Assembly: GCF_014652415.1 (NCBI RefSeq)
Contig: NZ_BMYT01000006.1
Span: 124,447-188,446, forward strand
Direction: 5' to 3'
Origin: Affinundibacterium macrobrachii
Lineage (GTDB): Bacteria; Pseudomonadota; Gammaproteobacteria; Burkholderiales; Burkholderiaceae_D
Length of the DNA: 64,000 bases
The notes under the pieces are model-generated. The model saw only the letters and a list, made by a program, of their open reading frames with translations. It had not been told where the DNA came from and did no database searches. Positions 16,647-55,267 of the stretch are shown piece by piece. The translations under genes and the position numbers were made by a program. How positions within the stretch are numbered: position 1 is the first letter of the stretch; every line of letters begins with the position of its first letter.

Positions 16647-16690
16647 TTCGTTAATTCATTAATTCATTAATTCATTAATTAATTCGTTAA
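16639..16690. repeat. 8-bp tandem repeat between the DUF2141 and carotenoid oxygenase genes
   Basis: Six imperfect copies of the unit TTAATTCA, beginning inside the stop region of the DUF2141 gene and filling most of the gap to the next gene. Three central copies are identical. It ends just before the GGAG ribosome-binding site of the carotenoid oxygenase, so a copy-number change would alter intergenic spacing. Confidence 0.85.
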
Positions 16691-16707
16691 TCATTCGGAG
16701 TTTGATC

Positions 16708-34216: not shown

Positions 34217-35086
34217 TTAAAGCATAGCCTGTTGTGTTTGAATCTCTTTGAGAGTTCGACCCGCTGAATCTTTCCACTCGATCCGTCCATTGGCGCTGCG
34301 TCCTAATACGATGGCCGCTGCTGTCGATGGGCTGCTGAAACTGTAGTCTTGTGTGAACACGTAGTCTTCGCCAGCTTTATTCAGTACACCGTTTGACATT
34401 AAATCTTCGCGTAGATCCAAGATGCCGCGCATTTGATCGCGCATTGATGGTGTGATTGAGCCGCTTGCTTGTGAATTTGTTTTGACGATGAAGCCTTGAT
34501 TGGATTCGTAGCCTTCTGCCTTAAGACCTTTTCCAGAGCAAAAGAGCTTCGTCAATTTTTGCGACTCCGTCGTGTTTGTGCGAGCTATCTCGAAGGCGCT
34601 GATGCCGAGTACTGGCAGCATACTCAACATATGATCTAGAAACACCATCATGTCTGCACGATCAGCCTCGGAGAGTGTGGGTTCGTTCTCTGCTTTGATG
34701 TTTTCCAAACGAATGCGTTTGGCGTCTTTGGCGCGTTGAATTAATTGTGCTTCCAAAAATTGCACATGTGCTTTGTTGAGATGACCCGGTCCAGCGACGA
34801 AAAATACTGCACGTGTCCAGAAATCTTTATTGCTGTAATGGCTTTCTAAACGAGGTTTTACTGGATCACCTTCTCCGATGTACATCATCTCACCATCAGC
34901 ATCCGGTCTTGGTCCCATCAAGATGTAAATGCCGGTCTGTGCGAACTCATCTCTCTGTTTGATGGACGGTAACAGGCCTCTTGGAAAGACGAGTGCTTTG
35001 CCTATCCAGTTGCTACGTTCAACGATGCGAAGGCCGTCTGGGTCGCCTGTGGATACGAATATTTTTAGGGAAAATGGTGGGGACAT
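34217..35086 (-). CDS. GIY-YIG nuclease family protein with DUF4357 C-terminus
   Basis: A 289-residue protein. A GIY-YIG-like fold is at about 50-140 (TGIYILMG then MYIGEGDPVKPRLESHY, a nuclease motif) and the C-terminal 60 residues (STAAAIVLGRSANGRIEWKDSAGRTLKEI) match DUF4357. Proteins of this build are frequent in defence islands beside restriction or toxin systems; whether they cut DNA is unknown. AGGA lies 9 bases before the ATG. It is 91 bp downstream of komC on the same strand, perhaps co-transcribed. Confidence 0.78.
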   Translation of the reverse strand: MSPPFSLKIFVSTGDPDGLRIVERSNWIGKALVFPRGLLPSIKQRDEFAQTGIYILMGPRPDADGEMMYIGEGDPVKPRLESHYSNKDFWTRAVFFVAGPGHLNKAHVQFLEAQLIQRAKDAKRIRLENIKAENEPTLSEADRADMMVFLDHMLSMLPVLGISAFEIARTNTTESQKLTKLFCSGKGLKAEGYESNQGFIVKTNSQASGSITPSMRDQMRGILDLREDLMSNGVLNKAGEDYVFTQDYSFSSPSTAAAIVLGRSANGRIEWKDSAGRTLKEIQTQQAML

Positions 35087-35176
35087 AAATGAATTCCTCT
35101 ACCGCTTTGATTTAGAAAAGTTGTTATTTTTAATGGAAAAGGAGATCGACCATGTCGCTATCTATTCAAGGCTCAG

Positions 35177-35965
35177 TTAAACGAAATTTTTTAGGAAATC
35201 CGCAAGTGCCTCTCCTGGATCATCAATTTCAGAGGACAGCATATTGATACCCCACTGATCAAGAATCGCTTCTTGGATGGGATTTGGATTTGGTGAAAAA
35301 ATATATGATCTCGGCTGGGTGCCACCGCTATCATTTGTCTTCCAGAGTTTTGACAGTTTATAGAACAGGAGTCTTATGTTGATGTCTGTCAAGCTATAAC
35401 CAATAAATAAGACGGACTTCCCAAGGACATCTGATCTAAGTTTTATGTCTAGTGGTGTTTCAAACCCCAATCTTTCAAAATAACTTGTCTCATCGAGAAC
35501 AATGGATTTATCGTCGTCGAAGTCACCATGAAATTTTACAATTTGTGTGCCTTTTCCACTAATGCTCGTTAAGTCAGCGACAGATACAATTTTTTTATAT
35601 GGCTTCTTGTAGTGATCAAACGCTAGTTCAACCCAGCGATCATAATTTGTCGTGTAAATAATGGGAAATTTTGAATTTGCAATATGTTCGTGAACTTTGG
35701 ATGTCTCCACTTTAATGTCGGGAGAATGCCAGGTTCTATCCATCCAGCTTCGAAGTTTTCCTAAGCTTCCTTTTTTCACTCGATAGTATTCAGCCAACGC
35801 CAAGTCAGTCCCTAGTGTTTTATAAATTTCAGGATCGTATTCGAGTTCAGTCGCGATTTTTTCGATTAGTTGCTTCCAAGATGGCAGACCTAAATTCATC
35901 GACACACCAGCGCCAATGAAAAGAATAACGTTACCTTGCTTGTATGATGAAATGAGTTGCTCCAT
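35177..35965 (-). CDS. komC: SIR2-family effector of a Kongming-type defence system (KomC)
   Basis: A 262-residue SIR2-fold protein, probably an NADase that kills or stalls the infected cell. The NAD-binding GAGVS is near residue 19, TTNYD is near 104, the catalytic-His motif KFHGDFDD is near 145, and FIGYSLTD near 186. It lacks the zinc-ribbon of true sirtuins, as in defence SIR2 proteins. Its start overlaps the komB stop (TAATG), so it is coupled to the HAM1 gene. Order komA-komB-komC matches Kongming, where KomB and KomC form the sensor-effector complex. Confidence 0.85.
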
Positions 35966-36522
35966 TACTCGTCTACCTTCTTAAGAAATTCTTTAAATTT
36001 GTCGAAAGCTATTTTTCGCATCGAAATTTCATTCTTTCGAATTGTCCCCATTTCTGCAAAGCTTTCGGATTCACCTTCTGGAATGAAAACACAGTCCCAT
36101 TGAAATTTCTGCTGACCTTTTGGCGAGCTTGGTATCGTGCCTCTAATACTGCCCTCGAATAAGTGAATTTTTTTTGAGTCGCAGTAGCCAATGACTGTTT
36201 TTGCGACTAGCGTTGTATTCGGTCCTTGTCCGAAGAGTTCAGTAAATCTTACGGCTTCCAATTTATCCCAAAATATTTGCGTAAGCCCCCCAGGAAATTC
36301 GTTTAAACTCTCGATGTAAAGACCGGTATGTTCGACGAAAACGGGTTTTCCGGTTATGTGAAAAGCTTTGAGTAGTTTGTCCCTGACGAGTTTGTCAACA
36401 TCTTCTGTTTGAATTTCATCGATGGATTTTGGAACCGGAATTACTTCAATATTTGAGTCCGCAAGAATAGCTTTTACCTCATCTATCTTATGGGGGTTTT
36501 TTGAGATGAATCGTAGTTTCAC
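35965..36522 (-). CDS. komB: HAM1/ITPase-like sensor of a Kongming-type defence system (KomB)
   Basis: A 185-residue HAM1-family (RdgB/ITPase) protein. The fold signature is present: [28 protein letters not shown] and [10 protein letters not shown]. Two catalytic-site residues differ from active enzymes: the Asp of the ED-T-G-L motif (Asp69 in E. coli RdgB) is His here (VEHTGL), and the SHR motif is SMR. That fits a protein that binds an inosine nucleotide as a signal rather than hydrolysing it. GTG start at 36522 overlaps the komA stop (GTGA). In Kongming, KomB senses dITP. Confidence 0.85.
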
Positions 36523-37502
36523 GTTAGTCCTTTAATAAAGCTGTATTTCTTTTGTTTTTCAAACATATTTTGAAGATGTTCTAAATTTTCTGTTTCATTG
36601 TAGAAGCACAAGTAATCATCACTCAGTCCTGATGCGTGAATTGATGGGTTGTCGGAGCAAATGACAAAAGGTACGCCCAATTTGATGAATTCGACGACAG
36701 GGTGTTTCTCATTTTCTTCGATCGCACCAGTTCGACGATTGCTGATTGGACATACTTCAACGCAAATATCATTTTTTTGTAACAATTCCATGACTGCAGC
36801 GGATTTATATGCGGCCGTGCCATGCCCAATACGGTCGGCTTTGAACCTAACAATTGCATCCAAAATATTACCGGCATTTCCAGTTTCTCCCGCGTGGATA
36901 GTAATGTTTAACCCAAAATCATTTTTTGCTTTTTCGAAGAGATACCCTAGTTCCAAAGGTGAAGTTGTATCCTCGTATCCTGCAAGATCGATTCCGACTA
37001 CAAAATCAGGGCGATCCAAGTTCTTGAAAGCCTCAAGTAGCGCGCTCAGATGTGTACAAGCAAAATTACCTCTAGACACGGTAAGGATGAGCCCAGCTTT
37101 AATTTTGTATTTGGACGAAGCATTTTTTATTTCGTCAATCAACCAAGATAGGGCGGTTTCGACGTCGACATTATTGAGTTTAGACAGATAAAGAACACTG
37201 CTACGCAATTCGACGAACTGTATGTTTTGTTCCTTCAAATTGCTAAATGCGTTATCAACGATCATGGCTAAATTAGCTCGACTCTTTGGAATTAGTCTAA
37301 GCACTTCCCATGGTTTCAGATATGTCTCCAAATTTCTTGCAGGCGTTAATATTACGAGGTCCTGGTTCAAGTCGAATCCAGGTGGTATTGATGTGTATTC
37401 TTGATGCAGTAGCTTTCTTACTATGTCTGTACTCACAAGGCCATTTAAATGAACATGTAATTCACCTTTTGGATAGTGTTTAAACAAATTTTGCGTTTTC
37501 AT
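36519..37502 (-). CDS. komA: Adenosine deaminase of a Kongming-type defence system (KomA)
   Basis: A 327-residue adenosine deaminase-fold protein that would turn dAMP or a related nucleotide into its inosine form, the signal precursor in Kongming. Metal ligands: HVHL near residue 17, HAGE near 195, VGIDLAGYE, and DRIGHGTAA. In the Asp-Asp-Pro motif the second Asp is Asn (CSDNPSIHA near 281), so purine contact may be changed. I use the ATG at 37502; it has no good ribosome-binding site, and a TTG 15 codons earlier is an alternative. Three genes overlap by a few bases each, a tight operon. Confidence 0.85.
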
Positions 37503-37617
37503 TAATTTATGATTAAACCGTATGCTTTGAACTGAAAATGAAGTCAATCCAGTAACGCCTTACTTTGACAACTGATGTGCCAGTAAAACTCGCTTGTTTT
37601 TGAAGAAATTGAAGTTC

Positions 37618-38079
37618 TTATTCACCAATAATTTCTCTCATCCGAAAACGTGCTAAAGCAAGCGTTGCTGTCGCTGTCGCGGATGAAAGAATGCCAGCCA
37701 CCAAGATTGCTATTGCCAGTTGTGGCTTGGAATCGGTGCTAACCATGAAAAAGGCGATAAATGCTAGGAGAGATCCCATTACACACCAAAGAAAAATTGC
37801 TAAAACTCTCGCCTTTATCATTGGGTAATCGGGCCATTCTAGAATGATTTTTTTTGCGCCGGTTGGTGCTAACAAATCCAACCCTTCTTTGTAGCAAAAG
37901 CCAAGTAGCCCCAATGGGATCATTGCGGCGCCAAGCCCAAAACCGATGCTTTCTTTTATCGGTTTCACAAAGACATCAGCTAATGACGGTTGAAAAGTGT
38001 AAATAAGAAAAGGAAGACAACCAATCAGCAATTCTGGCGAAATAATTGTCAGTCTCAAGATGTCCTTAAATTGTTTCAT
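37618..38079 (-). CDS. Four-helix membrane protein, partner of the upstream unknown gene
   Basis: I do not recognise this 153-residue protein. It has four hydrophobic segments, about residues 10-29, 45-65, 90-113 and 119-143, with a charged loop between helices 2 and 3 (GAKKIILEWPDYPMIKAR). Its ATG overlaps the stop of the 300-residue gene upstream (ATGA), so the two are translationally coupled. In defence islands a soluble protein coupled to a small membrane protein often forms a sensor plus membrane-disrupting effector; that is only an inference here. Confidence 0.72.
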   Translation of the reverse strand: MKQFKDILRLTIISPELLIGCLPFLIYTFQPSLADVFVKPIKESIGFGLGAAMIPLGLLGFCYKEGLDLLAPTGAKKIILEWPDYPMIKARVLAIFLWCVMGSLLAFIAFFMVSTDSKPQLAIAILVAGILSSATATATLALARFRMREIIGE

Positions 38080-38978
38080 GGATGTTCTAGGCCTCGTTCT
38101 TCAGTGTGTCTTCTAAACACATCGACTGCATGCTGGTAGAGTAATTTCGGGTTTGGCTCACCCTCAAACATGAAGCTCTTTTGGTTTTCACTTGTGCGGA
38201 TAACGACATCGCGTGCTTCTTCTATACCCTTGATGCGTGCGTGGCCGTAGCCGTCGGCCGCCATGAGTAAAGCCGCATCACCGACCCCGTCGAGTAAAGG
38301 TTCCATAAGCTCGACCATGTTCTTTGATGTGTTATCGTCGAGAACCGCAACGGCGATACTTTTCAAATTGGTTTCGATTCCACTCGGTGCGGTTTCCTTG
38401 AACGATGCTTCTACTAATTTACGTTTTAGTAGGTACTCAGAAAGCGATTTCCAACAAGGGCCAAATAGAGGATTTGGAGGTTTCACCGTTGCATTGAGCT
38501 CGGTAATTTTGTCGAGTTTTGAGAGTCTAGCTACAAACGTTCTTAGATCGACGATTGGTTCAATATCGCAGCCTACAAAAAATTTCTGATGACGCATTTC
38601 GACCAGTTCTTTGAATACTTTCTCAAATTGCTCACTAGGAAAAACACCCCAGATATGTCGATAGGTAATTCCGCTAAAGCCAGGAATATAAACGAAGGCA
38701 CTCGCGGCATCTATTCGATTTAAAACTGGCGTTTCTGCGGATGTATGTTGTGCCTCTTGGACAACCTCTACTGCTCCGAGTTGCTTGTACTTAGCAATTT
38801 TTGCGAAGTAACCAATTTCTTGACCAGGGCCATCAAATTTTTCAAAATCAATGAAGCTGTATTTGGTACCTCGATATTCAATAATGATGGGATTCTGCAT
38901 TGCCTCCACAATTTTCTTGGAAGTCATCTCGCCTCGTTTTAAGACTCGGCCCAAGTAATAACGTGTTAGTTTTCCCAT
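38076..38978 (-). CDS. Unrecognised 300-residue protein of the defence island
   Basis: I cannot assign a family. It is a soluble, mixed alpha/beta protein. Residues 1-25 are basic (LTRYYLGRVLKRGEM), the middle has FVYIPGFSGITYRHIWGVFPSEQF and the segment near 150-165 reads DLRTFVARLSKLDKITELNATV. The C-terminal part carries ALLMAADGYGHARIKG near 235-250. The general build, with ELNATVKPP and later GYGHA, faintly recalls abortive-infection DUF proteins, but I would not name one. AGGA lies 9 bases before the ATG. It is coupled to the four-helix gene, and lies between Kom and type I RM genes. Confidence 0.75.
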   Translation of the reverse strand: MGKLTRYYLGRVLKRGEMTSKKIVEAMQNPIIIEYRGTKYSFIDFEKFDGPGQEIGYFAKIAKYKQLGAVEVVQEAQHTSAETPVLNRIDAASAFVYIPGFSGITYRHIWGVFPSEQFEKVFKELVEMRHQKFFVGCDIEPIVDLRTFVARLSKLDKITELNATVKPPNPLFGPCWKSLSEYLLKRKLVEASFKETAPSGIETNLKSIAVAVLDDNTSKNMVELMEPLLDGVGDAALLMAADGYGHARIKGIEEARDVVIRTSENQKSFMFEGEPNPKLLYQHAVDVFRRHTEERGLEHP

Positions 38979-39101
38979 CTTTTACTTTCCTTACTTTTGA
39001 AGTGTAATCGCAAAATTAAAGAACAAATTGTTTAGCTAGCTTGCATTTCTAATTAGGCTTAGTTTCTGAATTGATAGGGACTTGCTCGACCAGTTTGAGA
39101 G

Positions 39102-40847
39102 TCATCTTGTGGGAGCATGCTCAATCAGGACGTCGGCAAGTTTTTGTTGAGATCGGCGCATGTTGGTGATGCGTGATTTTAGTTGATCACATAAGACCAT
39201 TAGTTGGCCTACTTTGGATACTATCCTGTGTTGTTCATTAATCGGTGGAACCGGAATTGGCAAGTTGTTTGATACAGCTAAGTATAGGCACGGCTGCGCG
39301 TTCTGTTTTACGCCGGCCCAAATAGTTTTCTGCAGAGAAGGACTACGCAAAGCCATCGTTAGGTATCGAATATTGATCAGTAAAGGTTTGACTAACGTGA
39401 CACTTCTAACAATTACCATGTCACGATGATCCTCAATCATTGTTAGTCTTCCAATTGTCGCTCCAACAGAGACGATTAGAATGTCATTGGGTTCTGGTTT
39501 GCAGCGATTCCAGCACTTGGATGCAACATCAAAATCCACAAAGTCTGTGGTTGTATAATCCATGCTACCGTCACGAACGTTCTTCGCTGTGATAAGCGGT
39601 ATCTTCGTATTGTCAGTTGTTCGTTCAGGAGTTAAATGTTCACCATCTGTGATTTGCTTAGCACAATTTATCATTCGGGTCCAACTCCACCCACTTGGCA
39701 ATTTAAACAGCTCCTCGCTGTCGCTAACCGTCGCAAGAGCCTTATCTTTCTTGATCTTTCCCTCAGCAACCAACTTCGCTTTCTCAGCCTGTATCCGTTT
39801 AAGCAACTCACTCGCCGGTTCATCATTCGGATCTTGTCGTACGAGTTTGCCCATGACGGCGAGTTGGAGGATGGTTTGTTTTAGGGCTTCTATGCAGGAT
39901 TCTGTGGTGAAGAGTGTGTCGAAGTGATCGGCGATGCGTTGCCAGTTGGCGTTGAAGTCGTCGGGGTCTTGTGATTGCGTGAGTGTGCCGAGCAAATGGC
40001 TGACCAGTTGCTCGTGTGCTTCTGCTGCGTTGTTGTGTTGATGTTCTAGTTGATCACATAGCACCATGAGTTCGTCTATTTTGGCGACTATGCGGTGTTG
40101 TTCGGCTAGGGGGGGCGTAGGTATGCAATATTGTAACAGTTCATCTTGTCGAATTCCTGCAACGGTCATTCCGCTACCAATAATCTTTAAGGTCCCGTAG
40201 AAATTTATAAAGTAATCGATATCAAGGAATGATGTAACTTTGAGGGCCTTGAGGTCTTGATTTATTGCGACATTCATCGCGGCAATCGCTATCTTTCCTA
40301 GTCCCATTCTTGTGCAGATAATTAGATCGCCCTTTTGCGCAAGTTTACTTCCCGCATCTAGCCCTTTCTGAGTAATGAAATCTTGAGTAGATTCAAGAAA
40401 TTTTTCTACATTCAAGTCTTTAACACTCGCCCAAGGTATGTCGCCGTTCCAGAATTCGGAATTGTTTTTACTTGGCGTTCCGCCGCTGATTATGTTCAGA
40501 ACAAAATCATTTAACCTTGCCCACTCCCAACCATATGGCAATTTAAATGGTTTCTCTTCGGTGGTTATTTCTGGTAGCGGCTTGCCTCCCTTAATCTTTC
40601 CATCTGCGATCAACTTAGCTTTCTCAACCTGAATCCGCTTCAACAATTCACTAGCAGGCTCATCATTCGGATCTTGCGGCACCAACTTTCCGCGCACCGC
40701 GAGCTCCAAAATCAACTCGCGCAGTTTTTTAATGCCATACACGCTGTTCGCACTTCCAGAAACGCGGCCACGGCCTGACTTCTTTTCAGTATCCGCTGCT
40801 GTCCAAATTTCGAGATGATCTGTGATCAGTTTGTGTACTGCGCTCAT
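39102..40847 (-). CDS. hsdS: Type I restriction-modification specificity subunit HsdS
   Basis: A 581-residue HsdS with two target-recognition domains, at about residues 100-265 (after KLPYGWEW) and 390-550 (after KLPSGWSW), joined by helical spacers. A conserved block is duplicated: ...PNDEPASELLKRI near residue 60 and again near 340, followed by EKAKL and a basic GKI stretch. The direct duplication is typical and can recombine to swap recognition domains. Length fits type IB (EcoAI, about 589). Its start abuts the hsdM stop (0 bp gap). Confidence 0.94.
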   Translation of the reverse strand: MSAVHKLITDHLEIWTAADTEKKSGRGRVSGSANSVYGIKKLRELILELAVRGKLVPQDPNDEPASELLKRIQVEKAKLIADGKIKGGKPLPEITTEEKPFKLPYGWEWARLNDFVLNIISGGTPSKNNSEFWNGDIPWASVKDLNVEKFLESTQDFITQKGLDAGSKLAQKGDLIICTRMGLGKIAIAAMNVAINQDLKALKVTSFLDIDYFINFYGTLKIIGSGMTVAGIRQDELLQYCIPTPPLAEQHRIVAKIDELMVLCDQLEHQHNNAAEAHEQLVSHLLGTLTQSQDPDDFNANWQRIADHFDTLFTTESCIEALKQTILQLAVMGKLVRQDPNDEPASELLKRIQAEKAKLVAEGKIKKDKALATVSDSEELFKLPSGWSWTRMINCAKQITDGEHLTPERTTDNTKIPLITAKNVRDGSMDYTTTDFVDFDVASKCWNRCKPEPNDILIVSVGATIGRLTMIEDHRDMVIVRSVTLVKPLLINIRYLTMALRSPSLQKTIWAGVKQNAQPCLYLAVSNNLPIPVPPINEQHRIVSKVGQLMVLCDQLKSRITNMRRSQQKLADVLIEHAPTR

Positions 40848-42317
40848 TTATTCCTCACCTTTCAATGCTTTGGTTAGGATGTCTTTGAGTTGATGGCGCA
40901 GATCGCTGATCTCGTTTTGCATTTGCGCGTATTGCGCTAACAATTCTTCTGGATCGTGTTGTTCTTGTTCGCCAACGTGAGGGTTCTTACAATCGAGGTT
41001 GTAGTTGCGTTCTTTGATCTCGGCGATGCTAACTTTCCACGCTTGTGGTGTTTCTGTACGTTGTGCATAGCCGTCCGCCTCGCTTCCCCACCATGCTTTT
41101 TCGGTGGCGAATTCTTCGATGCGCATGGGTTTGGATTTGTTGTAACTCTTCACGCCTTCAGGGTAGGGGTGTTCGTAGAACCATGTCTCTTTGGTTGGCG
41201 TGCCTTTGGTGAAGAAAAGCAGATTGGTTTTGATGCCGGTGTAAGGCGCGAAGACGCCGTTGGGCAAGCGCACAATGGTGTGCAAGTTACATTCTTCTAA
41301 AAGCTTTTCTTTGATGCGGGTTTTGATGCCTTCACCAAATAAGAAACCGTCTGGCAAAACGAGGGCGGCGCGGCCATTGGCTTTGAGAAGCTGCATGATC
41401 AGCACGACGAACAAGTCGGCGGTTTCTCGGGTGCGAAAGGCGCTGGGGAAGTTGGTTTCAATGCCGTCTTCTTCCATGCCACCAAAAGGCGGATTAGTGA
41501 CGATGACATCGACACGTTCTTTTGGGCCCCAACTGATCAAAGGGCGCGATAAGGTGTTGTCGTGACGAATATTGCTGGGCACATCGATGCCGTGCAGTAT
41601 CATATTGGTGGTGCAGAGTAAATGCGGTAGCGGTTTTTTCTCGATACCGAAAATGCTGTTTTGCAGTTGCGCTTCATCGTCGACAGTTTTCACATCTTGT
41701 TTGCGAATATGTTCGATGGAGCACGATAGAAAGCCGCCGGTACCACAAGCAGGGTCCATGACTTTCTCACCCAAGCGCGGGTTGGTCATCTGCACCATAA
41801 ATTCGGTGACGGCGCGTGGCGTGTAAAATTCGCCCGCATTGCCTGCGGCTTGCAAATCACGCAGCAGTTGCTCGTACATGTCTCCAAACAAATGGCGCTC
41901 TTGTGCCTTGTTGAAGTCGATGCCTTCTTGGATTTTGTTGATGACTTGACGTATCAACTGGCCGGACTTCATGTAGTTGTAGGCGTCTTCAAAAACAGAA
42001 CGAATCACATAGGCGCGTTGATCGCCACCTTTGGCTTCCAAAGTTTGTAGGGCAGGGAAGAGATCATTGTCTAAAAACTGCTTGAGTTCGTCGCCTGTCA
42101 TGCCCTCGGGATTAGCAGCCCAATTGCGCCAGCGGTATTTTTCAGGTAGCGGTGATTGGTAGTTGTCTTGTATGAGTTCCCACTCGGTTTCGCGGTCGTC
42201 AAAAATTTTGAGAAACAACATCCACACGAGCTGACTTAAACGCTGGGCGTCGCCGTCGACACCTACGTCTTTGCGCATGATGTCTTGAATGGATTTGATG
42301 GTGCTTGAGATGCTCAT
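40848..42317 (-). CDS. hsdM: Type I restriction-modification methyltransferase subunit HsdM
   Basis: A 489-residue N6-adenine methyltransferase. The SAM motif DPACGTGGF lies near 188-196 and the catalytic NPPF in VTNPPFGG near 277. The N-terminal helical domain begins SISSTIKSIQDIMRKD. The length equals that of EcoAI/EcoEI HsdM, pointing to type IB. It assembles as two HsdM with one HsdS. It lies between hsdR and hsdS. Confidence 0.96.
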   Translation of the reverse strand: MSISSTIKSIQDIMRKDVGVDGDAQRLSQLVWMLFLKIFDDRETEWELIQDNYQSPLPEKYRWRNWAANPEGMTGDELKQFLDNDLFPALQTLEAKGGDQRAYVIRSVFEDAYNYMKSGQLIRQVINKIQEGIDFNKAQERHLFGDMYEQLLRDLQAAGNAGEFYTPRAVTEFMVQMTNPRLGEKVMDPACGTGGFLSCSIEHIRKQDVKTVDDEAQLQNSIFGIEKKPLPHLLCTTNMILHGIDVPSNIRHDNTLSRPLISWGPKERVDVIVTNPPFGGMEEDGIETNFPSAFRTRETADLFVVLIMQLLKANGRAALVLPDGFLFGEGIKTRIKEKLLEECNLHTIVRLPNGVFAPYTGIKTNLLFFTKGTPTKETWFYEHPYPEGVKSYNKSKPMRIEEFATEKAWWGSEADGYAQRTETPQAWKVSIAEIKERNYNLDCKNPHVGEQEQHDPEELLAQYAQMQNEISDLRHQLKDILTKALKGEE

Positions 42318-42383
42318 GGTGTTCTTTTCAGGTTCGAATGATTGTTGATTTTTGTGCTTCTTTAGAATTCGGTGCTCTTAAAA

Positions 42384-42426
42384 CTCCCCTCTACCGCAAG
42401 CGGGAGAGGGGTTGGGGGTGAGGGCG
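42384..42426 (-). repeat. REP-like palindrome, copy 1
   Basis: On the minus strand this is CGCCCTCACCCCCAA followed by CCCCTCTCCCGCTTGCGG..., a stem around GCTTGC. With copy 2 it forms an inverted pair in the 256-bp gap between hsdR and hsdM. This family (CCCTCTCCCGCTTGCGGGAGAGGG type) is widespread in proteobacteria. Confidence 0.85.
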
Positions 42427-42498
42427 TTCGAGAAATTAGATTTGATATTCATGTGCTTGTTTGTATCGTTATTCTTTATGCTTTGTGCGCGACTCAGG

Positions 42499-42538
42499 CT
42501 CCCTCACCCCAGCCCTCTCCCGCTTGCGGGAGAGGGAG
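42499..42538 (+). repeat. REP-like palindrome, copy 2
   Basis: CTCCCTCACCCCAGCC followed by a perfect stem CCCTCTCCCGC / GCGGGAGAGGG. It is in opposite orientation to copy 1, 72 bp away. The head-to-head arrangement resembles a REPIN, which RAYT transposases move. Confidence 0.85.
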
Positions 42539-42573
42539 TTAGAAGCAATTCGCTTTGTTTTTTTGTTGACAGT

Positions 42574-44940
42574 CTAGGCATATAAGTTTTGTTCCAATTC
42601 AGCTAGTGCCTCCATATAGGCTTGCTTTCCACCAAACGCAGAGACAAGCTCTGTGGCGCTGCCCATATTCTTGAATGGGTCGAGTGTAAGAATTTTGATG
42701 TCTTCGATATTCTCAATCCCCGTATCCGCATATTTTTCTAATAGAGTCTCTAAGACTTTGCGTGCTTGCTCACTATATTTCGCGAAGTAATTACGCTTTT
42801 TGACGTTGTTGGCACGCTCTTTTCTGGTGAGTGGTGGCTGGTCGAATGCGACGTGGCAGATTAGGTCAAAGGCATCGAGTTCTTTGCCGACTTCTTCTGC
42901 TAATGGTTCAAACAATACGCCATGTTGTTCTAACTCTTTGATGATAGCGGCCTTACGTTCGGCGCTTGTCCAGCGCTTTAAAAATTGATCGAGTGAAGTG
43001 TAATCTTTACGTACGGTGTTACGGGTGTAATCTTTGAGCGATTCGGTCATGAGTTTGCCGTCGCTGCCGTAGTATTGAACTCGTTCCGCGATCACGTGCA
43101 CCGTTACGTCACCGAGAACGTACTTGATACGTCTGCCACCACCACTGATATCTGATCCAGGGATTTCATCATCGTCGATGGCATTATCTTTGTCGCTATC
43201 AGTTGATTGTGGGTCAGGCGTCACGTCAATATCATCGGGCGGCACCGGTGGTTCATCTTCCTTGGGTTCGTAGATCACCACGGGTTCGCCATCAAAATCT
43301 TTGTCGGCAAAAAGCTCGGTGGCTTTTTTAAAGTCCATGATGGTGAACCAGTATTTGTCGTAGTCTTCGTTGATGCGCGTACCGCGACCGATGATCTGTT
43401 TGAACTCGGTCATGGATTTGATGTGTTGATCCAGTACGACTAACTTACAGGTTTGTGCATCGACACCAGTTGTCATTAACTTGGACGTGGTGGCGATCAC
43501 GGGATAGCGCTCTTCTGGGTTGATGAAGTTATCGAGTTCGGCTTTGCCTTCTTGTTCATCACCCGTAATTCGCATCACGTATTTGCGGTTTTCTTTGACT
43601 CGCTCTGGATTCAAATTGACGAGTGCTTGACGCATGCGTTCTGCGTGGTCGATGTCGTCGCAGAATACGATGGTTTTAGCAAAAGGATCGCTGGCTTTGA
43701 GAAAATCGGTGATCTTTTGCGCGACTAGCTCTGTGCGTTTTTCTAGTACCAAGGTGCGATCCATGTCGCTTTGGTTAAACACGCGGTCTTCGATTTCTTG
43801 TCCATATTTATCGAGCTGCCCTTTACGCGGACGCCAGCCTTGTAAATCGCGGTCGATATCAATACGCACGACTTTATATGGTGCGAGGAAGCCGTCTTCA
43901 ATACCTTGTTTTAAGGTGTAGCTGTAAACGGGGTCACCAAAGTAGGTGATGCTGGAGACATCTTTGGTTTCTTTTGGTGTGGCGGTAAGACCAACGTGGG
44001 CCGCATTACTGAAATATTCAAGCACTTCGCGCCAAGCGGAATCTTCGGCAGCGCTACCACGATGACATTCATCGATTACGATGAGGTCAAAGAAATCTGG
44101 CGAGAATTGTTTATAGATGTTTTTCTCATCTTCATTTCCAGTCACTGCTTGATATAGGCTCAGATAAATCTCGTAGCTTTTATCGATTTGGCGTTTGCTG
44201 ATTTTGGTCATCGCTGCGCCAAAGGGTTTGAAATCATTATTCTTGGTTTGGTCCACCAGAATATTACGGTCTGCTAAAAAGAGAATACGTTTCTTAGTGC
44301 CCGATTTCCACAAACGCCAGATGATCTGAAATGCAGTGTAGGTTTTACCTGTGCCAGTTGCCATGACTAGCAATACTCGTTGTTGGCCTCTGGCGATCGC
44401 CTCTACAGTATTGTTAATCGCATTGGCTTGATAGTAGCGAGGCGCGCGACCTGTGCCGTCGTCGTAGTAAGGCATTTCTATGGTCTGGACAGCCTCAGCA
44501 GTCGCGATGCCTTTCCAAACGCAATAGCGTTGCCAAAGTTCTGCTGGCGATGGGAATTGGTTAAGGCCTATTTCGGTCTCTGTCTTTGCAGCATTGCCTG
44601 TGCGGTCGTGAAATAGGAATGCATCGCCATTTGAACTAAACACAAATGGCACACCCAAGGTCTCGGCATAATTTAAAGCTTGTTGCATGCCATCGCCAAT
44701 ACTGTGCTTGTTGTCTTTGGCTTCGATGACGGCGATCGGAATATTTTTCTTGTGGTACAGGATGTAATCTGCACGCTTCTGTTCACCGCGTGTATGCAAT
44801 TTGCCGCGCACGATAATGCGACCTTTGGTGAAGCTGACTTCTTCTCGGATTTGGGTATGCAAATCCCAGCCTGCTTCGAGGATGGCTGGGGTAATGTATT
44901 TGCTGCAGATATCGCGTTCAGTAAGGCTCTTTTTATCCAT
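42574..44940 (-). CDS. hsdR: Type I restriction endonuclease subunit HsdR
   Basis: A 788-residue motor-nuclease subunit. The N-terminal nuclease domain has RADYILY...VIEAKD (the D...ExK motif near 57-76). The helicase domain carries Walker A MATGTGKT (about 195), DECH (about 290), TATP, and QIIGRGTRI (about 510). The C-terminal region ends near [10 protein letters not shown]. The short length fits the EcoAI/EcoEI (type IB) branch. hsdR is first in the operon, with two REP repeats between it and hsdM. Confidence 0.95.
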
Positions 44941-45553
44941 CGACTAATCCACTGTCCACCAAAATGAGGAGTGATGATTGTACTGTAGTCTCTATAGAAA
45001 ACAGGCGATTTTTGCGGGGTTTAATAGCTTATAGGTGATCTTTTTTCGAGCGTGTAAATTTACATGTAAAAAGCATTCTTGAATTTGTTGATGTTAATCA
45101 GTTAAACGCCATGATCCCGTTTGTTCCTTAGTTTGAAATATCAATAACGCGATTTGAATTCCCCCAAAACTTCCGAAAACCGGAACTTCGTTATTCCCCG
45201 CATGAGTGATCATGTTGATGTTCAGTTTTTCTGAACGTTCCATTCCTTCGCCTTGCATTGTGGTTGATTCACCTGCCTAGGCATCAACATCACATCGACG
45301 CACTCGCGCAGTGTTCGGGGAATTTTTGGTGTCTGTAAAAATATGCTAGTCAATAACTCATATAACTCATTTCAGGTAATCCCCGCATCTGTAGGTGAAA
45401 TATTCCTTGAGGCAATAATTTTTTCTATTGATTCTGATCTGAACTGTGACTTTGCTCTACGCATTAACAGATGAAACAGGGAGCAGATTTCAATGTTGTG
45501 TACCCAGAATATGGACTTTGTAAGTTCCGCTTTTTGGCGAAGATAATCCCGTT
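44941..45553. other. Intergenic region, 613 bp, hsdR/hipBA divergent promoters
   Basis: AT-rich. A short hairpin GTTCAG-TTTTT-CTGAAC is at 45220-45236. I see no convincing gene; a 69-codon minus-strand frame at 45372-45581 lacks a ribosome-binding site and overlaps operators. The hipBA operators follow immediately. Confidence 0.6.
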
Positions 45554-45654
45554 TAACAATGTTTATGTTGCAACTCCTCATTACAATGTATAGATTGTAA
45601 TTCGCAAATACAACTTTTATGTTGTATTGTTGAAATACAATGCTAAACTTGTAG
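45554..45654. promoter_or_regulatory. Four hipB operators with 27-bp periodicity
   Basis: Four 20-bp dyads of 7-6-7 pattern, centred at 45563.5, 45590.5, 45617.5 and 45644.5. The second (TTACAAT-GTATAG-ATTGTAA) and third (ATACAAC-TTTTAT-GTTGTAT) are perfect; the first and fourth are degenerate. The exact 27-bp spacing and the position just upstream of hipB indicate cooperative autorepression by HipB, as in E. coli hipBA, which also has four operators of a different sequence. Confidence 0.85.
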
Positions 45655-45683
45655 GCGATTTAAATTGTCAGGAGCAGGAGCGC

Positions 45684-46133
45684 ATGGAATATCGAATCCA
45701 AACACTCAATCAACTAAAACCACTTGTTCAAGGCTTTAGGCGAAAATCCGGCTTGACGCAAGCGGCGATGGCTGAGCGATTAGGGGTGTCTCAGCAAGCC
45801 TACGCACAGATCGAGTCAAACTTATCTAGCACAAGTGTTGAACGACTGTACACAATACTTAGGTTATTGAATATCGATATTAATTTTACGAGCCATGCAG
45901 AAGTCCAATCAACAGCAGTAGAGATCGCTAGCATTTCATCGAAAAATCTGGTCACTCCGAATAAAGTTAAAAAACCTCAGAGCTTCAAAGTAGAACTAGG
46001 TACTAAAAAACTAGTCTCCAGAAAAAAGCAGTCAAATACTTTATCGAGCAAAGAAACAACTAGCGCAAACAAAAAACGAACCTTGGCCTCACCTGCAAAA
46101 CTAAGTAAGCGCTCAGACACGACGAAATGGTGA
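45684..46133 (+). CDS. hipB: HipB-type antitoxin (XRE helix-turn-helix)
   Basis: A 149-residue Xre-family protein that would bind the operators upstream and neutralise HipA. The helix-turn-helix is residues about 15-55 (GFRRKSGLTQAAMAERLGVSQQAYAQIES). Beyond residue 70 is a Ser/Thr/Lys-rich tail of about 80 residues, much longer than in E. coli HipB (88 residues). I start at ATG 45684 because GGAG is 6 bases upstream; an earlier ATG overlaps the operators. The stop is 3 bp before hipA. Confidence 0.9.
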   Translation: MEYRIQTLNQLKPLVQGFRRKSGLTQAAMAERLGVSQQAYAQIESNLSSTSVERLYTILRLLNIDINFTSHAEVQSTAVEIASISSKNLVTPNKVKKPQSFKVELGTKKLVSRKKQSNTLSSKETTSANKKRTLASPAKLSKRSDTTKW

Positions 46134-46136
46134 TGC

Positions 46137-47471
46137 ATGGCACGTAGATCAAAGCAAAATACGCTTAATGTTTGGTTCAACGGCACTCCCGTTGGTCAAT
46201 GGAGAAACAAGGCAAATTCTTCTACTTTCACTTACTTTAATGAGTGGTTAGAGGACGAGAGCGGACGTCCATTGTCATTGTCGATGCCATTTACGGCAAA
46301 TAATGATGCCTATTCCGGTCAGGTAGTCATAAACTATTTCGATAATTTATTGCCAGACAGCGACATCATTCGACGTCGGCTTGCCATGCGCCACAATACA
46401 GGTGGCACATCTCCGTTTCAACTACTTGAGGCAATCGGTAGAGACTGCGTGGGCGCCGCCCAAATACTCCCTGAAGATGTGCAGCCCGAAGACTTGTTTT
46501 CTATCCGCAAACGCCCACTAGACGAACAAGCGATAGCCAAATTATTGCGTGATACTACTAACTCAAACCCGTTTGGACACACCGATGATGATCAAGATTT
46601 TCGAATTTCCATCGCTGGTGCTCAGGAAAAAAATGCTCTCCTATACCATCAGGGAGGTTGGTACCTACCAATTGGAAGTACACCAACCACACATATATTG
46701 AAATTGCCGCTCGGATTGGTCGGAAGTATGCGCGCGGATATGAGTACATCGATAGAAAATGAATGGCTGTGTTCTATCATTCTTGAAGAATTTAATCTGC
46801 CGATTGCGAAGACAGAAATTCTGCAGTTTGAAGAACAAAAAGTGCTTTCCGTAGAAAGATTCGATCGGAAGTATTCCGATGACAGAAGTTGGATTGTTCG
46901 TCTTCCGCAAGAAGATATGTGCCAAGCCTCGGGATGTTCACCGCTCAATAAATATCAGAGAGATGGTGGACCAGGGATTGAAGCGATTATGCGGCTATTG
47001 TTAGGCTCCGAAAGCGCGGCAAAAGACAGACGAAACTTCTTTAAAACCCAAATCATCTTTTGGTTGCTTGCGGCAATCGATGGGCACGCAAAAAATTTCA
47101 GTATTTTCTTGCAGCCGAAAGCTCGATATCAGGCAACGCCAATTTATGACGTGTTATCTGCACACCCAGTTATTGGTACAGGACCTAATATGATTTCGCC
47201 ACAGGACGCTAAACTCGCCATGGCAGTCCGAGGAAGCACTAACTACTATCATATCCAACGTATCCAACGCCGACATTGGTCTAGTATGGCAAAACAGGTG
47301 GGCCTAGGTGCGATAACTGCTGAGGAAATTATCGAAGAGGTACTTGCGCAGGTTCCAAAAGTTGTTGAGTCTGTGTATGGAAGATTGCCCGCAAACTTTC
47401 CCTCATCTCTTGCCGAGTCGATAATTAAGGGGCTACAAAAACAAGCGGCCATTCTTGCCAATCAGTGTTGA
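46137..47471 (+). CDS. hipA: HipA-type serine/threonine kinase toxin
   Basis: A 444-residue HipA-fold kinase. The N-terminal HipA domain begins NTLNVWFNGTPVGQW; the auto-phosphorylated-Ser loop is RISIAGAQEK (about 158), VERFDRKY (about 242) is typical, and the catalytic Asp-His is in AIDGHAKNF (about 317). E. coli HipA phosphorylates glutamyl-tRNA synthetase to induce persistence; the substrate here is not known. It directly follows hipB. Confidence 0.92.
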   Translation: MARRSKQNTLNVWFNGTPVGQWRNKANSSTFTYFNEWLEDESGRPLSLSMPFTANNDAYSGQVVINYFDNLLPDSDIIRRRLAMRHNTGGTSPFQLLEAIGRDCVGAAQILPEDVQPEDLFSIRKRPLDEQAIAKLLRDTTNSNPFGHTDDDQDFRISIAGAQEKNALLYHQGGWYLPIGSTPTTHILKLPLGLVGSMRADMSTSIENEWLCSIILEEFNLPIAKTEILQFEEQKVLSVERFDRKYSDDRSWIVRLPQEDMCQASGCSPLNKYQRDGGPGIEAIMRLLLGSESAAKDRRNFFKTQIIFWLLAAIDGHAKNFSIFLQPKARYQATPIYDVLSAHPVIGTGPNMISPQDAKLAMAVRGSTNYYHIQRIQRRHWSSMAKQVGLGAITAEEIIEEVLAQVPKVVESVYGRLPANFPSSLAESIIKGLQKQAAILANQC

Positions 47472-47651: not shown

Positions 47652-47660
47652 CATTATTCT

Positions 47661-47706
47661 TGGTGGCCCGGGGCGGAATCGAACCACCGACACAAGGATT
47701 TTCAAT
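47661..47706 (-). repeat. Displaced 3' fragment of tRNA-Phe (attachment-site copy)
   Basis: The minus strand reads ATTGAAAATCC (anticodon GAA), through the variable loop and T arm (GGTGG-TTCGATT-CCGCC), the acceptor strand and CCA. It is 46 bp, beginning within the anticodon arm; the next base does not fit tRNA-Phe. There is no 5' half here. It is the classic remnant left by integration into a tRNA 3' end. Because its own terminator follows on the left, the element extends to the right and the intact tRNA should lie beyond 64 kb. Confidence 0.88.
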
Positions 47707-51437: not shown

Positions 51438-52214
51438 CTAAATTTTAGAAGCTTCAATTGAATCAAAATTTATTGTGTCGGTATCGGCTACTTCTCGAAT
51501 TTTTGTCACATCAATTAGTCTCGGTTTGGCCTCTATTTCAGTTTTCTCAATCCATTCCGATAGATTGACCGTGGAGGCCTTAAATCGGCGCACGTAAGGC
51601 AAAATCGTTGGGACGTCAGGAAATGCAGCGGACGGTCGGGAACGTGCCCATTCCGCTTTGAATAACGCCATGAGTTTTCCTACTTGACTACGACATTGTG
51701 AAAATCCTGGCGTGTGATAGAGGCTATGGATTGTTTGTCGAATTTTTTGGTCGTTCCCATTTCGGCATGTTTGAATGACGCGTATTCGCCACGCTTCGTA
51801 GTTGGAAATCTGCATTCGCCATGTCCAAGAAGGTTTGGATGAGCCTCTTCGCGTGTGACGCACCAGCTCATAGCCAGTCAGGACAAGCCGTCCGTTCGGC
51901 TCATGCGCATTGCGAAGTTTTTCCATATGATGAGCCGGGTGCTCGCCATTCGACACCAATAGGACCCAAGTGAGTATCCCAGGAGCTGATTCCCACAGAA
52001 GCAAACTCGCACATCCATCTCCGAGCTTTTTTGCTTGGAATCGCTCGTTTTTATTTTGTGCAACAAAATAATTTCGCTGGAATTTTCGAACAAGGTCATG
52101 TGCTTTTTTTCGTTGAACCGTTCCCATAGCGTAATGTTGGTAGCCGACGCGCACCCAATCAGCGGCCCGCTGCATGAGTGCGGTTTTACTTTTAAAAATT
52201 TCTGAATCGGGCAT
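51438..52214 (-). CDS. Unrecognised element protein, 258 aa
   Basis: I do not recognise it. It is a basic protein, rich in Trp and Arg in the middle (LLLWESAPGILTWVLLVSNGEHPAHHMEKL, TWRMQISNYEAWRIRV), with a helical C-terminus (LPYVRRFKASTVNLSEWIEK). It could act in replication or mobilisation, since it sits next to the replication genes, but no motif proves it. I start at ATG 52214 because GGAG lies 7 bases upstream; an earlier in-frame start lacks one. It diverges from the structured RNA region. Confidence 0.7.
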   Translation of the reverse strand: MPDSEIFKSKTALMQRAADWVRVGYQHYAMGTVQRKKAHDLVRKFQRNYFVAQNKNERFQAKKLGDGCASLLLWESAPGILTWVLLVSNGEHPAHHMEKLRNAHEPNGRLVLTGYELVRHTRRGSSKPSWTWRMQISNYEAWRIRVIQTCRNGNDQKIRQTIHSLYHTPGFSQCRSQVGKLMALFKAEWARSRPSAAFPDVPTILPYVRRFKASTVNLSEWIEKTEIEAKPRLIDVTKIREVADTDTINFDSIEASKI

Positions 52215-52349
52215 CTCTTTTCTCCATGAGTTAAACCAGATGAAAGCTGTTTGCCTGTACTGGTTATAGAGTGTAGAAACCAACCCTTGGAGTGCACATT
52301 AATAAGGATTCCAGTTACAACCGAATACATGAATGAATGAGGTTTCTAT

Positions 52350-53349
52350 ACCATTAAGCTCGTGTGCATTTGCACCGGGGTATGCGAACCTGCCAAATTT
52401 TGAAGCGGGGCGCCAACCCCAGCTTTGTTCTCGCTAAAACCGGAAGGTTTTAAAGCGTCAGTTGCCAACTGATGCTAGACAGCGGAAGCCGCGTGCACGT
52501 AATTGTGCTGGCGCGGCTACAACGGGGCGCTGGAGGGTGAGAATCCCTCCTTCGACCCCATTTAAAGAATGTGTTGGATTGGGCGACACGGACACGGATG
52601 GAGGTAGGAAATGACCTCTAATTCCTGTCAATGATTGAGTATGTAAAATCATACCCTCGGGGGGCTGGAGATGGTTCAACGAGTGCTGCACGGATGGCTG
52701 TTGAGATGTTAGAAATAGCATAGGGTCGCAAGGGAGACTGGCGCGACTGCTAGGGCAAGGGGCAACCTTTGACCAGCACTGTATAGCTCAAACCGGAAAG
52801 TGCGCCGCAGAGGCGTATTGCAGATTGTGATGCGTGTGGCGAGAGGAACTCTCGCTAGTCGAATCGTGATGAAATTTTTAGGGAGTAGACGAGCCGTTTT
52901 GGAATCCTGGGCCGTTGAAAACCTGGCTGTAATCGGGTGAGATTCTTAGAATCAGAAAATCTTAAAAATAGAGCGAGCACGCTAAGCAATTAGCATCATT
53001 GAATAACGTGGGAACCACTCACCCTGGTGCAGCTGGCACTGCGCATAACAGGAAGTGGGGGAGATTCGTTGAGTAGAGTTGAAAGCGACTGCAGATTCGA
53101 TGGATGTGGAAGTGAGTATCGAAAGACGAAAGCTGTTGAATCAAGCGATATAGCCTTGGCAGGCGACAAAGCAAATGTTCGGACAGATTCTGGACAACAC
53201 TCACATCTTTGTTGGCGCGAAGATGAAAAACCTGGATGAAACCGGGTGGAGTGGCAAGAGCAGAACTGAGTCAAGAGTAAAAAATTGGATGATTAATTTA
53301 TTCGTGATTCATTAGCGAGGCCCCAAATTTTTTTGGGGCCTTTCTTTTT
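52350..53349 (+). ncRNA. Candidate giant structured non-coding RNA (about 1 kb)
   Basis: No frame on either strand gives a credible protein through this region, yet it is dense in plus-strand hairpins. Examples: AAGCGGGG/CCCC-A-GCTT (52403-52425), TAAAACC-GGAA-GGTTTTA (52435-52452, GNRA loop), a 9-bp stem GCGTCAGTT/AACTGATGC (52455-52475), AGCCGCG/CGCGGCT enclosing GCAC/GTGC (52487-52518), GGGG/CCCC enclosing GGAGGG/CCCTCC (52524-52559), GAGGT/ACCTC, GTATG/CATAC, GCGAGAG-GAA-CTCTCGC (52839-52855), and GATTC-TTA-GAATC. It is more GC-rich than both flanks. A motif GAAAACCTGG...CGGGTG recurs at 52917 and 53225. It ends in a strong terminator. Size and context (integrated element) recall GOLLD, ROOL or OLE RNA; I cannot assign it. 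The 5' end is approximate. Confidence 0.72.
53318..53349 (+). terminator. Terminator of the large non-coding RNA
   Basis: A 10-bp stem (AGGCCCCAAA and complement) with loop TTTT, then TTCTTTTT. It follows the structured region and there is no protein gene immediately upstream on the plus strand, which supports a plus-strand RNA transcript. Confidence 0.9.
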
Positions 53350-53448
53350 GATTGTTTTTCCATGACAGTTATATGTTCTCGGAACTCATTTCGCTTTTTT
53401 TGGAAATAAGTATTTTGCTGTGATTATCTCTCTTGGTAAGGGCTTAAG

Positions 53449-53479
53449 ATGTTGGGAGGGCCTCAAGCCATCCCAACAT
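53449..53479. repeat. 9-bp inverted repeat between the RNA and repC
   Basis: ATGTTGGGA and its complement with a 13-base loop, 75 bp past the repC stop. It may end repC transcripts, though without a T tract. Confidence 0.5.
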
Positions 53480-53553
53480 TACGAGGATGCTTTTTGTTAA
53501 GAATAGTAAGAGTAAAATTATTCATGTAACGTATTGATTTTAAAAACCTTATT

Positions 53554-54393
53554 TCATTGTGGGTGTCGTCGCTTTGCCGGGGATTTGTTGTCGCTATGCC
53601 GTGACACAGAAACGATTTTTTTCTCAGCTTTGATGGACCAGTCTTTTTGTGTCATTTCAGCTAGTGCGCAAGCCAATTTCGCCTTGCGGCTACGAAAAGT
53701 ACTACCGATGGCATTTCCACCCCATACAGCACGTTCTAAACTGGTCCAATTAAAGCTGTGCTCTTTCCCGGGCCTTATAACACCGGAGAGAAAAGCGTGC
53801 AGAGCCATTCCTGGATGGCTTGTTAGCGCAAGTCGCTCGCTCATACAAATTTTCACATATTGTGTCTCACCCCAGGCAGCACTGGCTAAGCAGGTATTCA
53901 ACGCAACACGAGTATTTCCTGAGCGGCTCAAAACAACCGATAGCAGCCTTGAGGAAGCCTCATAATCACGCGTGCGTATCCAGACGGTGATTTCCGCAAG
54001 ACGACGCAACATCTGCTTTACCTGTTCAAGATTAGCACCTCCGCAATCAACGTATCCGCAAAGTCTGGCAAGTTCAGACAAGCTAGTGCGAATGCTAGCC
54101 GTCTCACCAGCAAACATCTCGCCTTCACTCATTAACGCTTGACGTAGTTGCTTACCGATGGGGCTCGTTGCTTGTTGCGATAATCTTTGCATGCCAGGGC
54201 CTGCTAAAGACATCAAGGCAAGCAAAAGGGTCTGTTCGGGCACACCTGGGGCAACAGGCGCAACCCACTCAAAGGTTACACCTTTAAATTGTTGCGTTAC
54301 GCTTAAGCGTGGACGTTCCTGACGAGCTTGCAATGGTCGAAAAAGGCCTGACAACGCGATAGCAGGCTCATACCTAACAATCCTATCAGTCAT
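53554..54393 (-). CDS. repC: IncQ-type replication initiator RepC
   Basis: A 279-residue protein with the RepC-type layout of IncQ plasmids. The N-terminus (YEPAIALSGLFRPLQA...RPRLSVTQQFKGVTFEWVAP) parallels RSF1010 RepC, and LMSLAGPG, LRQALMSEGEMFAGE, SLSELARLCGY and the winged-helix C-terminus (GNTRVALNTCLASA, SERLALTSHPGMALHAFLSG) follow. RepC binds origin iterons and opens DNA. It overlaps repA by 8 bp, downstream of it, as in IncQ. A basic tail ends it. Confidence 0.82.
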   Translation of the reverse strand: MTDRIVRYEPAIALSGLFRPLQARQERPRLSVTQQFKGVTFEWVAPVAPGVPEQTLLLALMSLAGPGMQRLSQQATSPIGKQLRQALMSEGEMFAGETASIRTSLSELARLCGYVDCGGANLEQVKQMLRRLAEITVWIRTRDYEASSRLLSVVLSRSGNTRVALNTCLASAAWGETQYVKICMSERLALTSHPGMALHAFLSGVIRPGKEHSFNWTSLERAVWGGNAIGSTFRSRKAKLACALAEMTQKDWSIKAEKKIVSVSRHSDNKSPAKRRHPQ

Positions 54394-55267
54394 ATTGCAC
54401 GCCTTTTCTTGAGCTTGAACTTTTCGGTAACTGCGTCTTTGTTAGTACTCCGCCAGGCAATCGTCGTAACCAAACCGGGGCTTGAGGCGCACCGTAATTT
54501 GTTTTAGATATCGCAAAAGTCACATAGAAACGGGCATCATCAATTGGAATATTTTGTGCTTCTGCAAATTTGGGTGTCATTGTGGAAAGGTTTGCTTGCC
54601 AGCGGACGCCATCAGTTAGCGCGCTTGAACCGCGGGCTGCTTGTTGAGACTCGCTCTGACCATTGAACGCTGCAGCCTTGCTTGTGTGATGCGCGACCAA
54701 AACAGCCGCATTCGTGTGCGTGGCGATACGCTCCAAGGATTGGACAAGTTGCGTCATTGCGCCGCTATCGTTTTCATCACCGTCATGCAATCTGCGGAGT
54801 GGGTCTGCAATAATCAGCCGGCAACCTTCACCAAGTCTGGAAATTTCCTTCATGACTTTAGTGTCGTAGCCATCGTCTATTAGGCGTACGTCTTTACCGC
54901 TAAGTGGAAATAATTTCAATCGGTGTTGCAGCTCATTTATTACTGATGCTCGCGTTTTAGCAGGAAATAATTCATCTCCAATAATCCAATGCACAATATC
55001 GTGCAGTCGTTGGCGTAAGATGACTTCTTGCTCTTCTGCGGCGAGAAAGAGGACTTCTTCCGGCGCTGCTTCTGGGAAAAGTCCACCAAACGAAGGTAGG
55101 CCTAGGCATCGACAGACGGCGAGTTGAAGCAAGAACTGCGTTTTACCTGTCGCGCCAGGGGCGACTAAATTGCCGACTGTGGCTATTGGCAAGCCTGGCA
55201 GAACTAAATCTAAGATTGGCCGTGGCGATGTCAGTGCATCAGAAATGTTCATAGATGCCCAAGTCAT
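54386..55267 (-). CDS. repA: IncQ-type RepA hexameric helicase
   Basis: A 293-residue RecA/DnaB-fold helicase. Walker A is PGATGKTQF (about 37-45), Walker B is RLIIADPLRRLH near 145, and HHTSKAAAF, QQAARGSSALTDGVRWQ and KTNYGAP match RSF1010 RepA over its length. It unwinds the origin together with RepC. AGAGGTG lies 4-10 bases before the ATG. IncQ replication proteins inside an integrated element are unusual and suggest autonomous replication after excision. Confidence 0.85.
   Translation of the reverse strand: MTWASMNISDALTSPRPILDLVLPGLPIATVGNLVAPGATGKTQFLLQLAVCRCLGLPSFGGLFPEAAPEEVLFLAAEEQEVILRQRLHDIVHWIIGDELFPAKTRASVINELQHRLKLFPLSGKDVRLIDDGYDTKVMKEISRLGEGCRLIIADPLRRLHDGDENDSGAMTQLVQSLERIATHTNAAVLVAHHTSKAAAFNGQSESQQAARGSSALTDGVRWQANLSTMTPKFAEAQNIPIDDARFYVTFAISKTNYGAPQAPVWLRRLPGGVLTKTQLPKSSSSRKGVQYD

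Follow-up and report, generated by a model that had tools for sequence, protein, structure and literature searches.

A circularly permuted group II RNA on an integrated plasmid-like element of Affinundibacterium macrobrachii, and the predicted maturase-like fold of its neighbour AcpG

Circularly permuted (CP) group II RNAs, originally named T-large, are noncoding RNAs of about 900 nt that are found on bacterial chromosomes and often on plasmids, and biochemistry on five members showed that they back-splice to yield an RNA circle and a branched RNA (PMC8637638). The 2021 account reports that the gene acpG lies near these RNAs frequently, not universally, presents the AcpG protein without known relatives and cautions that association need not mean interaction (PMC8637638). 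A role for the CP group II ribozymes has so far been lacking. Here we describe a new copy of this class, known since 2021, in a 64,000-nt stretch of Affinundibacterium macrobrachii DNA (contig NZ_BMYT01000006.1, positions 124,447 to 188,446 of the forward strand; "the window", numbered from its first letter). The RNA is carried, together with a divergently oriented acpG gene, by an integrated plasmid-like element of about 27.5 kb at tRNA-Phe. What we add is the prediction that AcpG is maturase-like, and a measure of how strongly it is linked to the RNA.

The identification rests on homology, domain order, reversed splice sites, complementarity between exon- and intron-binding sites 1 (EBS1 and IBS1), covariation and tight linkage to acpG, and each tested local feature of the published description is present in the window RNA (Table 1). 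In the alignment, domains 5 and 6 (D5, D6) are followed by a linker and then by D1, with the splice sites in reversed order; the canonical arrangement, in which D1 to D6 follow in order between terminal splice sites, is not seen, as D5 and D6 precede D1. Covariation was assessed in 62 sequences, representing those of the 73 anchored loci that entered the alignment. Among 1363 cells of D5 and D6, 98.0% are paired, and 18 of the 22 base pairs change on both sides. Cells changed on both sides numbered 254, as compared to a mean of 62 in shuffles and a maximum of 52 in slid controls, and none of 500 shuffles reached any of five measures. Most of the aligned sequences had been collected by a pattern containing CAAT and GGGCGACACGG, and conservation of these letters is partly selected by that pattern, which does not hold for the helices except for one C. 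An initial annotation made from the sequence alone had singled out these two nested helices, which are D5 and D6, and had proposed covariation across homologues as a test of the RNA; both stems are exact and covary.

A complementarity scan over D1 and beyond singled out the EBS1 column, in which the 5-mer is fully complementary to the linker of the same locus in 51% of 72 loci, compared to a mean of 30% and a maximum of 40% in 200 shuffles. The covariance model (CM) detects the RNA of pPNAP05 with E 2.3e-30, and the splice-site rule assigns it a linker of 32 nt, which matches the circle length predicted for this RNA in 2021; pPNAP05 is from one of the five species assayed at that time (PMC8637638). 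The window RNA itself scores 110.6 bits, its sequence being part of the model.

Homology detected by nhmmer delimits the conserved part of the RNA to about 52364-53119, and for the region of D2 to D4 and the three special pseudoknots it is this overall homology only that links the window RNA to its relatives. The segment 53120-53316, which precedes the terminator, has no counterpart in the homologues seen. The second of two GAAAACCTGG-like motifs (at 53225) falls inside this unmatched segment; both stretches, reported as recurring in the initial annotation, are found in the sequence. In keeping with the size and noncoding character of the class, the longest listed open reading frame (ORF) within the RNA region has no more than 92 aa, and the minimum free energy of 52365-53345 is -366.3 kcal/mol (z -6.1), with none of 20 dinucleotide shuffles being as low. 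The earlier claims of about 1 kb without credible protein frame and of a strongly structured plus-strand RNA were correct, as were the terminator at its end, a hairpin with a T run, and a GNRA-capped stem at 52435-52452, near which the predicted fold has a stem with GGAA loop. The description as GC-rich among AT-rich genes applies only mildly: G+C of the region is about 0.49-0.50, versus 0.37-0.49 just upstream and 0.40-0.51 just downstream.

Table 1. Features of the CP group II RNA locus and its element in the window
Feature	Position	Strand	Basis
Left attachment (att) repeat, 50-bp copy of tRNA-Phe 3' end	47657..47706		direct repeat
acpG, divergent upstream of the RNA; predicted palm-thumb fold of group II intron reverse transcriptase/maturase	51438..52283	-	
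CP group II RNA, approximate transcript	52365..53345	+	nhmmer homology to plasmid RNAs; CM match; fold; ends approximate
D5: AGC triad 52487-52489, five pairs, UG bulge 52509-52510, GUAAUU loop	52487..52518	+	alignment, covariation, fold
D6: conserved CGCU/UUCG internal loop; bulged branch-point A at 52555	52524..52559	+	alignment, covariation
3' splice site, here AU (consensus NU, PMC8637638)	52560..52561	+	final AT invariant in 62 aligned sequences
Linker, predicted excised 19-nt circle; IBS1 GGATT at 52576-52580	52562..52580	+	splice-site rule
5' splice site GGGCG and D1 start (GGGCGACACGG)	52581..52585	+	alignment
EBS1 (AATCC) in D1, complementary to IBS1	52903..52907	+	best column of complementarity scan
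Intrinsic terminator, hairpin and T run	about 53318-53349	+	sequence, predicted fold
RepC-type plasmid replication protein	53554..54393	-	PF06504, E 5e-30
RepA-like AAA protein ("RepA-like" is an interpretation)	54386..55267	-	PF13481, E 1.1e-31

Searches by blastn using the window RNA matched 15 plasmid records, and queries from two relatives matched 38 and 32 records, the sets overlapping. Homologues are found on plasmids of E. coli, Acinetobacter, Azotobacter, Halomonas, Paraburkholderia, Pandoraea, Thiothrix and Thermus, on pMtBL of Pseudoalteromonas, in acetic acid bacteria and in others, and the phage records searched gave no match. In E. coli the RNA is present in 21 of 5426 genomes, and all 23 places are on plasmids. 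Iterated nhmmer aligned most of the RNA for most loci and part of it for Acinetobacter, Deinococcus and Thermus. A pattern scan returned 75 loci from genome contigs and one from viral contigs, 63 of which were confirmed by profile. The remaining 13 (including L074 and L089) showed no RNA by profile, reached 16.7-23.5 bits with the CM and were dropped before counts were made; the collecting pattern alone occurs by chance. Likewise, a match in genome G001 lies in an apparent coding region and was taken as chance.

Several carriers deserve mention in their own right. On Pandoraea pPO70-4 (L018, 6445-8587) an IS256-family transposase gene, with annotated position 6697-7962, interrupts the CP RNA. 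Thiothrix unzii pTunz1 (L007) has two copies, at about 1281-2006 and 16662-17402, each preceding a replication-initiation gene, which in the second case follows about 1.3 kb on. Acinetobacter pACI-235c (L023) carries the RNA and acpG alongside annotated macrolide-resistance genes. On 3-kb plasmids of E. coli, the RNA takes up at least a quarter of the replicon, which makes them a convenient place to learn its function.

At the window locus acpG is nearby, as described for the class. The encoded protein is similar to the neighbour of the pPNAP05 RNA (33%, E 2e-34) and to that of the Thermus pTF62 RNA (21%, E 5e-6); naming these neighbours AcpG relies on their position and on the published account of TTHC007 (PMC8637638). 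AcpG is encoded within the fetched stretch at 44 of 59 loci with a long RNA match, divergently upstream in 40 cases, to which the window adds one more. Linkage was quantified in 399 genomes of the host's order, of which 33 have AcpG and 25 the RNA, two of the latter (G123 and G202) being weak matches without AcpG. All 23 genomes with strong RNA matches also encode AcpG, none lacks it, and according to the listed coordinates AcpG is within 2 kb of every strong RNA copy (26/26). Fisher's test for co-occurrence yielded p 7e-30, or 2e-27 when the two weak matches are counted. Ten genomes have AcpG without RNA at the threshold used. As the weak CM matches in these genomes reach 22.2 bits at best, which does not set them above the dropped pattern matches, we relied on nhmmer, which revealed a divergent RNA at the expected place in three (L119, L123, L124) and a weak trace in one (L122). 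Four further genomes have a partial AcpG or a contig end, and in two (G405, G214) AcpG is complete and no RNA was found by CM or nhmmer. RNA and AcpG distances also correlate across 44 loci (rho 0.35; none of 2000 permutations as high), shared host descent being left in.

The RNA does not always require AcpG. It occurs on seven E. coli plasmids of about 3 kb; profile scans of two of these revealed no AcpG, and by blastn acpG is absent from six of the seven strains with such a plasmid, the exception being FHI_NMBU_11. This strain harbors a small acpG-less CP RNA plasmid beside a larger acpG-bearing one (NZ_CP045715, NZ_CP045717), and a similar pair exists in Novacetimonas hansenii (NZ_CP062148, NZ_CP062149; same strain as judged from accession numbers). 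These two-plasmid cases suggest that AcpG may be supplied in trans. The Antarctic vector plasmid pMtBL encodes an AcpG homologue as well, in its hypothetical ORF (L011, 71-817).

Structure prediction points to a relationship of AcpG with group II reverse transcriptases (RTs). For two AcpG models, the top nine and the top eight rows of the VIA ranking are group II or group-II-like (G2L4) RTs, and both models have the palm-thumb fold of these enzymes. Viral polymerases, which have a palm fold in common, appear lower down. Fingers (RT-0 to RT-2) ahead of the palm are missing: alignment of the window AcpG model starts at residue 21-25, versus chain residues of about 101-155 in the group II rows. 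The YxDD motif is also missing; any xDD of the kind sought occurs in 7 of 45 AcpG proteins at scattered places, as compared to YADD or YIDD in all eight canonical intron-encoded proteins. At the sequence level, hhalign of AcpG against these eight proteins gave 0.2-0.3%, i.e. no detection, comparison with the mixed proteins of the window gave nothing, and no Pfam family was found in more than one of the 45 AcpG proteins. Foldseek additionally listed quorum-sensing receptors, HMG-CoA reductase, viral polymerases and others, which were set aside because the VIA ranking puts group II RTs first. On the strength of these models, it is somewhat more probable than not that AcpG descends from a group II RT, without fingers or catalytic activity, and is kept as trans-acting maturase, a bacterial and plasmid-borne counterpart of Prp8 at the RNA core of the spliceosome. 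In that case, plasmids and integrative elements would have domesticated a retroelement machine in the form of the permuted ribonucleoprotein (RNP), which could no longer copy itself and could make circles and attack RNA or DNA in trans.

The strongest alternative, which we regard as possible and clearly less probable, accepts the CP group II RNA and takes AcpG as unrelated to maturases, e.g. as a DNA-binding or partition-type accessory protein that travels with it on plasmids. It would agree with the lack of sequence-level similarity to RTs, with the six E. coli strains devoid of acpG, with the two full-length AcpG genes without detected RNA and with the caution voiced in 2021 on association and interaction (PMC8637638). 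Against it stand the presence of AcpG within 2 kb of all 26 strong RNA copies and the group II RTs that head the fold ranking for both models.

We assign a probability of about 0.88 to the reading that the window encodes a CP group II ribozyme on an integrated plasmid-like element, back-splicing as the 2021 members do, with AcpG as degenerate maturase. The RNA is presumably catalytic. By analogy with the 2021 biochemistry, the bulged A52555 would attack the 5' splice site before G52581, and the linker end thereby freed would attack the 3' splice site after U52561, giving a 19-nt RNA circle and a T-shaped RNA with 2'-5' branch. AcpG, as a degenerate intron-encoded RT/maturase predicted to have kept palm and thumb and to have lost fingers and YxDD site, may act in trans to fold or stabilise the RNA, in the manner of maturases. 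As role of the RNP we favour a reverse-splicing type of reaction in which the branched RNA targets RNA or DNA, as had been considered in the discussion of the 2021 study (PMC8637638). When the circle junction was assessed as DNA target, the 6+4-nt junction beat those of other loci by 0.089 +/- 0.059, which is not significant, and longer versions are biased, since the native linker was left unmasked. As to replication, the CP RNA of pMtBL extends from about 3119 onward according to the CM, apart from the published minimal origin at 1918-2759 (if numbered as in the record), and compared to the complete plasmid, which restores ParAB as well, a vector with only the origin has lower stability (PMC6848147, PMC10033558). 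Nearly all of the RNA of pTT8 could be deleted with replication kept; a chromosomal copy remains (cited in PMC8637638).

It appears improbable that the window copy has lost catalysis and persists as a relic of a group II element. In favour of this, its D6 end is unusual, reading GACCCCAT instead of the usual GACCCAAT, and the 3' extension is unmatched. In contrast, the AGC triad, the five-pair spacing, the UN bulge, the branch A, both splice sites and the 5-bp EBS1-IBS1 pairing are intact, the extra base in D6 has a partner (G52524-C52559) and acpG is an open frame.

The setting in an integrated element, which the initial annotation had supposed, is borne out by att repeats of the tRNA-Phe 3' end and an integrase. 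The second att copy lies outside the window (L024, 13132-13181), in the tRNA gene about 27.5 kb rightward, and the integrase gene (L024, 11481-12842) adjoins this tRNA-Phe gene. Apart from the replication genes in Table 1, the element encodes an IrrE-like protein. It also contains a gene for a 1947-aa NACHT-domain protein (L024, 1952-7795), perhaps a defence gene. Left of the element (34217-47471) there are type I restriction genes, a HipBA pair and genes for proteins resembling SIR2 and adenosine deaminase. The host genome gave no GIIM match.

A further proposal, less probable still than a dead relic, is a transfer or maintenance machine, in which the branched RNP reverse-splices into plasmid DNA in replicons without protein relaxase. 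In its favour, the carriers are typed non-mobilizable almost throughout, both in the three sets of RNA carriers (15/15, 37/38 and 32/32) and in two sets of AcpG carriers (27/28 and 26/26), all overlapping and redundant. Several of these plasmids also carry type IV secretion system (T4SS) or coupling genes, in some cases adjoining the RNA. Small plasmids are, however, often typed non-mobilizable anyway, and so are 50 of 148 plasmids with VirB4 relatives, carriers of CP RNA included; the typing may be meaningful or merely reflect small size. Moreover, TrwB_AAD_bind and TraG-D_C occur in only 4 and 3, respectively, of 56 neighbouring proteins scanned (55 of 88 listed candidates, mostly shorter ones being omitted, plus one E. 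coli gene; 25 of 58 families tabulated). The proteins scanned from the window element, i.e. all except a few short ORFs, include no T4SS or relaxase, and no DNA target of the circle junction emerged, with the native linker unmasked in the longer versions.

Finally, the suggestion of the initial annotation that the RNA may found a new class of giant ornate RNAs which, like GOLLD, ROOL or OLE, may assemble as multimers, in line with its size, structure, mobile setting and lack of an Rfam match, is refuted as far as the class is concerned, leaving it next to no probability: the RNA has clear homology to CP group II RNAs, one of them from a species assayed in 2021 (PMC8637638), and its splice sites are built like theirs. 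That the initial annotation could not match it to GOLLD, ROOL or OLE was borne out, as the proposed Rfam check, which also covered HEARO and introns, matched no Rfam 15 family in the whole window at gathering score and nothing meaningful in 52200-53600 at E up to 10. CsrC had the best E-value (0.0017), at 19.9 bits versus a cut-off of 61, and was rejected.

If AcpG is a degenerate maturase, RNA and protein would form an RNP resembling a stripped group II intron particle, of which both halves could be tested jointly, and acpG would receive its first testable job. Among described systems, the window locus is closest to the CP group II RNAs formerly called T-large (PMC8637638), which it resembles in size, domain order, D5 and D6 features, splice sites of the type NU-linker-GGGCG, EBS1-IBS1 pairing, plasmid-like setting and divergent acpG. 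It differs from other members by its 19-nt linker, the extra D6 pair, the unmatched segment 53120-53316 and the tRNA-Phe integrative element. GOLLD, ROOL and OLE are likewise very large structured bacterial RNAs, the former two often residing on mobile DNA, but neither these nor HEARO match the window RNA by covariance model. With canonical bacterial group II introns it shares the type of D5 and D6, the branch-point A and EBS1-IBS1, and the AcpG models resemble palm and thumb of their RT. In contrast to these introns, the domain order is permuted, there is no ORF inside the RNA, and the putative RT relative is encoded apart and has no YxDD. The pair would also be a bacterial case of an RT reduced to an RNA-splicing cofactor, a step thought to have led to Prp8 of the spliceosome. 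AcpG itself is a small bacterial protein, and it resembles the group II RTs more closely than Prp8.
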